Assembly (NCBI GenBank): GCA_018655525.1
Contig: JABIJM010000007.1
Span: 25,766-89,765, forward strand
DNA: 64,000 nt
DNA from: Candidatus Woesearchaeota archaeon
GTDB lineage: Archaea > Nanobdellota > Nanobdellia > Woesearchaeales > GW2011-AR9
Reading direction: 5' to 3'
Shown: one piece after another, positions 36,397 to 60,737 of the stretch
How the letters are laid out: every line of letters begins with the position of its first letter
Position numbering within the stretch: the first letter of the stretch is position 1
The notes under the pieces: model-generated
What the model was told of the DNA's origin: nothing
What the model saw: the letters and a program-made list of their open reading frames with translations, nothing else
The model's database searches: none
Program-made: the position numbers and the translations under genes

Positions 36397-37104
36397 ATGA
36401 AAAACAAAGAGGTTAATCAAAAAATGAAAATAAATGAAGAACTTGCAGAACTAATTGGTATTATATTGGGTGATGGTCATATGCATACGAAACATAATTT
36501 ATTTACAATTGTAGGGAGCTTAGAAGATTACTATTATTATCAAGATTATGTTATGCCTCTTTTTGAAAAAATATCAGGAAAAATACCTTCAATAAGAAAA
36601 AGAAATGATAGAAATGCATATTATTTAATGCTTACTTCAAAAGATTTGATGTCCTACTTAACAAATAAAATTGGTATGACTCGTGGATCAAAAATTAATG
36701 CTTCAATCCCTAAAATTATCTTCTCAAACAAAAAATTTGCTCGTGCATTTTTGAGAGGTATATTTGATACAGATGGATGTCTCAAATTTTCAAAACAAAC
36801 TAAAAAAATTAATTATTATCCGAGAGTTCAAATAGCACTACAAAAATCTCATTTAGCTACAGAAATAGGAACATTACTCAAACTTGTTGGTTTCTCGTAT
36901 GGATCTTGGGAAGATTCTAGATTTAATGGGGCGATATATTATAACATCTCTGGGAAAAAGAACACTGAAAAATGGATTAAAGAAATTTCACCTTCAAATC
37001 CCGTTCATATAAGTAAATTTCATTTTTGGAAAAGATTTGGTTATTATATCCCAAAATCAACTTTAAAGTCTAGACTAGCAAGTTTAAAGACAAAAACTTT
37101 ATAA
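36397..37104 (+). CDS. LAGLIDADG homing endonuclease, free-standing, directly upstream of tRNA-Gln
   Basis: Two motifs: ELIGIILGDGH and FLRGIFDTDGCL. Confidence 0.9.
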   Translation: MKNKEVNQKMKINEELAELIGIILGDGHMHTKHNLFTIVGSLEDYYYYQDYVMPLFEKISGKIPSIRKRNDRNAYYLMLTSKDLMSYLTNKIGMTRGSKINASIPKIIFSNKKFARAFLRGIFDTDGCLKFSKQTKKINYYPRVQIALQKSHLATEIGTLLKLVGFSYGSWEDSRFNGAIYYNISGKKNTEKWIKEISPSNPVHISKFHFWKRFGYYIPKSTLKSRLASLKTKTL

Positions 37105-37151: not shown

Positions 37152-37251
37152 AGCCCCGTGGAAGAGTGTATTTATGCATTCTGCGGAGTGTAGTGGACTA
37201 TCATCGTGCCCTTTGGAGGCATGGACCGCAGTTCGAATCTGCGCGGGGCTA
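37152..37251 (+). tRNA. tRNA-Gln(UUG) with 27-nt non-canonical intron at about 9/10 (37161..37187)
   Basis: AGCCCCG/CGGGGCT+A, anticodon arm GTGCC-CTTTGGA-GGCAT, T arm CGCAG-TTCGAAT-CTGCG; removing 27 nt gives 73-nt cloverleaf. Confidence 0.85.
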
Positions 37252-59892: not shown

Positions 59893-59984
59893 CCTTAAAA
59901 TGATTTTTTTGGTGTATATAAATGTTATTCTTTCCCAAATACGTAGAAAACCTTATAAATAGGTGTTTTAATAAGATTTATGTC

Positions 59985-60105
59985 GGGCCTATAGCTCAAT
60001 CTGGGAGAGCACTAGTTGCTGAAAAGCAAGTGATACTGAAGTTTCCAGATACCTGATTTTGGAATAGAAATCTAGGTGTTCAGGGTTCAAATCCCTGTAG
60101 GCCCA
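59985..60105 (+). tRNA. tRNA-Phe(GAA) with two introns (60016..60034 at 30/31; 60042..60069 at 37/38)
   Basis: GGGCCTA/TAGGCCC+A; GCTC/GAGC; exons CTAG + ACTGAAG + ATCTAG give stem CTAGA/TCTAG and loop CTGAAGA; T arm CAGGG-TTCAAAT-CCCTG; mature 74 nt. Confidence 0.82.
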
Positions 60106-60737
60106 CTTTCTTTTAATTTTTGATATCTATCTATAATTCTTTTATTTGAAAAACCAATCTCTTTATGCCATCTATTTACCATTCTATCTCCATTAATAGA
60201 GATCCTATATATTCTATTATAATCAGCTTGTTTATAATTTCTAAATCCTATCCGAAAATCCTGTGATAGTTTATCATGTAATTGATTTGCAAGTCTTTTA
60301 CTTGTTGTACTAATTTCTATTGTTGGATAATCTTTTCGATATCCTTTGTTTGCTAAAAACAAAGAACCATCTGTATCGACTATTCCTCGAATACAACATT
60401 TTAATAATTTTTTATTCTGTAATATCTCTTCAGGGATAAATATATTTTGACATTTTTCTTTATTGCATGGCATTTTTAATTCATAAACTAAATATTCAAC
60501 AAAACTTTTAGAATAAACTTTAAGTCTTAATCCTCGTTCTCTTATTTTAATGTGGGTTTTTAATTTTAATTCATTCCAGAATATTTCTGTCAAATGTTTA
60601 AAATATTCTTTTTCTTGTTTTGGATCACCTACAATCTCAACATAATATTGTGATATCTTTGGTTTATACCTAATGCAGCCATCTCCAATAATAGCACCTA
60701 TTAATTCTGCTTTTTTATCATTAAGAACCATAATCAA
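60087..60737 (-). CDS. LAGLIDADG homing endonuclease, free-standing, 3' end overlapping tRNA-Phe on the opposite strand
   Basis: AELIGAIIGDGC and CIRGIVDTDGSL motifs. Confidence 0.9.
   Translation of the reverse strand: MIMVLNDKKAELIGAIIGDGCIRYKPKISQYYVEIVGDPKQEKEYFKHLTEIFWNELKLKTHIKIRERGLRLKVYSKSFVEYLVYELKMPCNKEKCQNIFIPEEILQNKKLLKCCIRGIVDTDGSLFLANKGYRKDYPTIEISTTSKRLANQLHDKLSQDFRIGFRNYKQADYNRIYRISINGDRMVNRWHKEIGFSNKRIIDRYQKLKESGPTGI

Follow-up and report, generated by a model that had tools for sequence, protein, structure and literature searches.

Archaeal tRNA introns spliced at bulge-helix-bulge (BHB) sites are known at non-canonical positions, and as multiple introns in one gene, from the Thermoproteales and the Nanoarchaeota, with 30/31 among the listed positions (PMC4090602). 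That 2014 review calls it unknown how tRNA introns transpose, and homing is absent from the text (PMC4090602). Among archaeal rRNA introns, S1213 and S1205 of Pyrobaculum oguniense 16S rRNA form a pair in which one intron holds an endonuclease gene and a short hairpin intron adjoins it; the endonuclease cuts at the site of the short hairpin intron, and both introns are co-converted (PMC4496867). Collaborative or trans homing by free-standing endonucleases has been described in phages, including SegB near the tRNA genes of T4 (PMC2988022, PMC3984707). No report of free-standing endonucleases at archaeal tRNA introns was found in the open-access literature.

The locus described here lies in a window of 64,000 nt (the whole stretch of DNA analysed) and consists of a tRNA-Phe gene with two introns and an adjacent LAGLIDADG endonuclease gene, which is the unusual part of the locus and lay beyond the tRNA-only scope of the preliminary description. 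The locus resembles known archaeal BHB tRNA introns in its BHB splice sites, the 30/31 position and the combination with a canonical 37/38 intron, and differs from them in its Woesearchaeota-type host and in the flanking, tRNA-species-specific endonuclease gene (PMC4090602). Multi-intron tRNAs had been ascribed mainly to Thermoproteales-type archaea in the preliminary description; the Thermoproteales stand, and the word 'mainly' is refined by the addition of the Nanoarchaeota (PMC4090602). The nearest precedent is the P. oguniense arrangement of a short BHB intron with a nearby homing endonuclease gene (PMC4496867), although there the gene is inside the neighbouring rRNA intron, whereas in the window it is outside, beside the tRNA and on the opposite strand. 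As in phage collaborative homing, a free-standing endonuclease adjoins, and is proposed to mobilise, an intron or tRNA region that lacks an endonuclease of its own; the phage systems, however, involve group I introns and GIY-YIG or HNH enzymes, and the window has archaeal BHB introns, predicted to be spliced by EndA, and a LAGLIDADG enzyme. The proposed specificity for the tRNA anticodon region is shared with a group I intron-encoded endonuclease, which sits inside its self-splicing intron, whereas the gene in the window is free-standing.

The tRNA-Phe gene and its two introns

The tRNA-Phe(GAA) gene was placed at 59985-60105 on the + strand using orthologues and a match to the Rfam tRNA model RF00005 (49.4 bits; gathering score 29), in which all 71 model positions (1-71) were aligned and 56 nt were left unaligned in the anticodon region. 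ARAGORN, in its bacterial setting, did not detect the gene. Exon 1 (GGGCC...CACTAG, GGGCCTATAGCTCAATCTGGGAGAGCACTAG; tRNA positions 1-30) was set at 59985-60015 by alignment with the intronless tRNA-Phe of G001, a genome of the same genus, exon 2 (ACTGAAG; positions 31-37, anticodon GAA) at 60035-60041 from the sequence and the same alignment, and exon 3 (ATCTAG...CCCA; positions 38-73) at 60070-60105 from the sequence and the Rfam match, all on the + strand. The joined exons read as a 74-nt mature tRNA-Phe including the discriminator A, with U33 and a 7-bp acceptor stem, and its predicted sequence with the introns removed is CTAGACTGAAGATCTAG. A TATA-box-like TTATAAAT on the + strand at 59953-59960, 25-32 nt upstream of the gene and kept upstream of the G001 tRNA-Phe, is the probable promoter.

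Intron 1 (TTGCTGAAAAGCAAGTGAT, 19 nt) occupies 60016-60034 (+) at position 30/31 and was delimited by orthologues and its BHB fold; intron 2 (TTTCCAGATACCTGATTTTGGAATAGAA, 28 nt) occupies 60042-60069 (+) at the canonical position 37/38 and was delimited by orthologues. The G001 gene, with GAGCACTAGACTGAAGATCTAG at the corresponding place, agrees with the predicted mature tRNA of the window at 71 of 74 bases. Candidatus Woesearchaeota CG_4_10_14_0_2_um_filter_33_13 (G010) is interrupted at both places, by 19 nt at 30/31 and by 14 nt at 37/38. In G013 the gene is interrupted at 30/31 and in the D loop, but not at 37/38. An intron at 30/31 was also found in G096, G097 (host family f27) and G341 (f85). 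Both boundaries are fixed because intronless and partly introned orthologues were available. The proposal in the preliminary description of a 19-nt intron at 30/31 and a 28-nt intron at 37/38 is upheld by G001, G010 and G013 and by a covarying BHB at 30/31, and the perfect CTAGA-CTGAAGA-TCTAG arm that it obtained on removing both was reproduced from the sequence.

The extra bases form one block in the Rfam alignment of the anticodon region and could be read as one 47-nt intron or as the mark of a degenerate tRNA pseudogene. The single intron, dismissed in the preliminary description, was ruled out by comparison with orthologues that have none, one or both introns and so set both boundaries. 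Against a pseudogene, the acceptor, D and T arms and the promoter are intact, and a search for a functional copy elsewhere yielded no second tRNA-Phe in the genome of the window, either by two anticodon-arm patterns (assembly 93.6% complete) or among its 21 Rfam tRNA matches. Since no other tRNA-Phe was found, this gene is no spare pseudogene within the 93.6%-complete assembly, and we give this alternative almost no weight.

In the predicted BHB of intron 1, the central helix pairs CACU (60010-60013) with AGUG (60029-60032), flanked by bulges AG^U and AU^A, and the intron hairpin pairs 60017-60020 with 60025-60028. At 30/31, 6/6 genomes formed a central helix of 4 bp between two bulges of 3 nt, with all pairs standard: CACU of the exon is matched by AGUG of the intron (GGUG in G341), the bulges read AG^N and A(U/A)^A, and a hairpin of 4-5 bp, in which compensatory pair changes occur between genomes, closes the intron. 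The outer helix at 30/31 has 2 bp only. At 37/38 the exact motif is present in G010, and the fold is looser in the genome of the window than in G010 and G097, the central helix of the window (CUG/UAG) having 3 bp; of the BHB folds to be looked for at both sites of the window, the full motif was found at 30/31, and one with a shortened central helix at 37/38. The genome of the window has one recognisable gene for the splicing endonuclease EndA (200 aa, both the N- and the C-terminal domain present). Predicted splicing by EndA at both BHBs, followed by exon ligation, is strongly supported by these features of the sequence. Intron 1 interrupts the anticodon stem, which supplies the outer helix of the intron 2 BHB, so the simplest order is excision of intron 1 first; its early or independent excision is probable and would rebuild that helix.

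The flanking endonuclease gene and its relatives

The LAGLIDADG endonuclease gene is free-standing, encodes a 216-aa protein with two motifs and lies at 60087-60737 on the - strand, directly downstream of the tRNA-Phe and outside both introns. It is intact and was assigned by Pfam PF14528 (2.6e-8), by its motif aspartates and by homologues beside tRNAs. A PDB sequence search with the endonuclease returned no match. The endonuclease is probably active, since the aspartates of both motifs (D19 and D123) are invariant in the aligned homologues. Its C-terminus is encoded antisense to the 3' end of the tRNA-Phe, and its stop codon TGA comes from the antisense T-loop. In nine loci (including the window, 60087-60105) the overlap between the tRNA and a convergent endonuclease gene is exactly 18 nt, and because the antisense T-loop supplies the TGA in these nine loci, the conserved T-loop serves as a ready-made stop codon. 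Nine such LAGLIDADG genes are present in the genome of the window, and by manual count eight of them have a tRNA gene no more than 200 nt away.

A second pair is present in the window, where a LAGLIDADG gene at 36397-37104 (+; PF14528, 1.9e-9) ends 47 nt upstream of its partner, a tRNA-Gln(TTG) gene at 37152-37251 (+) with a probable D-stem intron of ~27 nt. The start at 37152 follows from the acceptor pairing AGCCCCG...CGGGGCT; the ARAGORN start at 37178 was rejected as a mis-set 5' end. G009 and G010 combine the tRNA-Gln intron with this endonuclease clade in the same way, and by eye the D-stem intron position is common to the Gln-clade members G000 (the genome of the window), G009 and G010.

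Relatives of the endonuclease were gathered by protein similarity in 352 genomes of the order, mostly incomplete assemblies, of which 179 were positive. A separate collection scan used a 4-sequence alignment of the endonuclease, a 16-sequence version being too divergent. tRNAs were located with an intron-tolerant script, and since the script misses some introned tRNAs, the counts of tRNA proximity are lower bounds. At 64 of 95 loci picked by endonuclease similarity alone, a tRNA was found within 200 nt, and in 61 of these 64 the tRNA exceeded 80 nt, an intron-type length; at about a third of the 95 loci no tRNA was detected nearby with this script. tRNA density was 0.65 per kb up to 200 nt from the endonuclease vs 0.07 per kb beyond, and 8% of random 720-bp window intervals had a tRNA at the same proximity.

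On a tree of 68 tRNA-flanking endonucleases, isotype changes numbered 22, compared with 46.9 on shuffling (0/200 shuffles as low); a script assigned isotypes to the introned tRNAs, with ~10 corrected by eye, which is a source of error in these numbers. Within an endonuclease clade the partner tends to be the same tRNA species, even in different host families. The clade of the window's enzyme (G000, G010, G097 and G237; support 100) adjoins tRNA-Phe throughout, in host families f1, f27 and f60, and a 48%-identical endonuclease in Nanoarchaeota BS150m-G60 (L300) also adjoins a tRNA-Phe with a 30/31 intron, which seems to hold two more introns besides. Outside the order, in Diapherotrites and Iainarchaeum (L301 and L302), two relatives flank intronless tRNA-Thr. 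The identity of the endonuclease, compared with that of RNA polymerase B, was 63% vs 64% between G000 and G097 and 55% vs 75% between G097 and G237; endonuclease identities that fail to track the host in this way are not what one would expect from descent alone.

Introns and endonucleases at tRNA-Phe genes

For a survey of tRNA-Phe, genes were found through anticodon-arm patterns or DNA similarity to the tRNA region, independently of the endonuclease. An endonuclease was present within 200 nt of 9/18 tRNA-Phe genes whose 5' anticodon stem holds an intron vs 4/126 without such an intron (one-sided Fisher P = 4.8e-7, a value that ignores the kinship of the related genomes), and the genes with both intron and endonuclease span at least four host families. 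G237 was excluded from the contingency table as it had been found through its endonuclease, and G175, a parsing artefact of the script, was counted as without a 5'-stem intron. The four genes with an endonuclease and no 5'-stem intron are G063, G075 and G212, which have introns at 37/38 or in the variable region, and G306. The last was dropped as an example of an intronless tRNA-Phe with an endonuclease, its acceptor stem reading by eye as GGGAA-intron-CA.

Half of the 5'-stem introns (9/18) have no endonuclease within 200 nt. The endonuclease beside the intron may be intact, stop-bearing (G060, G064) or absent (G013, G096, G341), and these three states are in line with the prediction of a homing life cycle. 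The clade does not correspond to one exact site, because the intron beside the G237 endonuclease, a close relative (58%) in the Phe clade, is near 28/29 and not at 30/31. The G001 locus is without both introns and without an endonuclease gene, on a short contig, and it is no clean empty site because its downstream flank diverges.

Several further intron arrangements were observed. Apparent acceptor-stem introns occur in tRNA-Phe at L300:3150-3330 and L198:1170-1290 (GGGA^...^CCG and GGGAA^...^CA), with an endonuclease gene on the 5' side. Long 37/38 introns of tRNA-Phe in several families (L122, L123, L125, L217, L223-L225) have an internal motif like AGATCTGATGAGGC...GCCGATGA, and an apparent T-loop intron (about 59/60) was seen in the tRNA-Phe of G016 and G008 (L043, L039), the former also having a D-loop intron. 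tRNA-Ile GAT genes (L239, L230, L076) have a 19-nt intron at 30/31 and adjoin a different endonuclease clade; these introns share, exactly or nearly, the ending GYGAA^ACTGA seen in tRNA-Phe, which suggests movement of introns between the two tRNAs.

Proposed homing, its alternatives and their meaning

Taken together as a sequence-based interpretation, the two BHB introns and the flanking LAGLIDADG gene probably form one selfish unit split in two, which would spread by collaborative or trans homing, and we infer that the endonuclease drives the homing. In cells or alleles that lack the intron, the endonuclease would recognise the anticodon region CACTAG^ACTGAAG of the tRNA-Phe gene and cut it; repair templated by the intron-bearing allele would co-convert the short intron and the adjacent endonuclease gene. 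Insertion of the intron would destroy the target site of the endonuclease, and the tRNA-Phe would still be functional because EndA removes the intron. Related endonuclease clades may act likewise at other tRNA species. On the broader generalisation we lean only slightly towards acceptance: that this free-standing LAGLIDADG family, in Woesearchaeota-like and some other DPANN archaea, consists of clade-wise tRNA specialists that drive the gain of minimal BHB introns (~14-35 nt) by co-conversion.

The endonuclease could instead be an unrelated selfish gene that inserts beside tRNA hot spots, the introns being ordinary ones that persist or spread independently, for example as protection against integration, as Randau and Soll reportedly proposed. 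tRNA genes are known integration sites (PMC3218864), and many 5'-stem introns are without an endonuclease. The intronless tRNA-Thr neighbours of the relatives in L301 and L302 make such simple insertion a live rival. At these two loci the endonuclease genes touch or overlap the tRNA-Thr (L301:2934-3005, L302:1065-1136), a pair that the intron-homing reading leaves unexplained. The rival nevertheless seems unlikely given the strong association of intron and endonuclease in tRNA-Phe, the grouping of endonuclease clades by tRNA species and the recurrence of the 30/31 intron with the same endonuclease clade in different host families; the sole apparent intronless exception in tRNA-Phe, G306, reads as an acceptor-stem intron.

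A host-defence role, in which the introns confer immunity to a tRNA-attacking endonuclease and are not its cargo, is similarly doubtful. It fits the introns that outlast the endonuclease in G013, G096 and G341 and the need for a carrier to be resistant itself, but a gene lying next to its intron is what co-conversion predicts, and defence does not need it. Some LAGLIDADG proteins act as maturases, and the protein could on that ground be a splicing helper for the introns; BHB introns are, however, cut by EndA, the gene for which is present, and introns exist where there is no LAGLIDADG gene, so that a maturase role is very improbable.

Under the preferred homing interpretation, a tRNA-species-specific endonuclease gene lying next to intron-bearing tRNA genes is a concrete, testable engine of archaeal tRNA intron movement, and it would help to explain the clustering of introns in the conserved anticodon region. 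For annotators, a flanking endonuclease is an aid in finding mis-called multi-intron tRNAs. The recurrence of the endonuclease-tRNA pairing at many tRNAs in related archaea suggests a possible route of intron spread; if true, intron and endonuclease would form a mobile system of two parts, archaeal tRNA introns would have a general mechanism of spread, and these tRNA genes would be arenas for selfish DNA within the very small, reduced genomes of such archaea.
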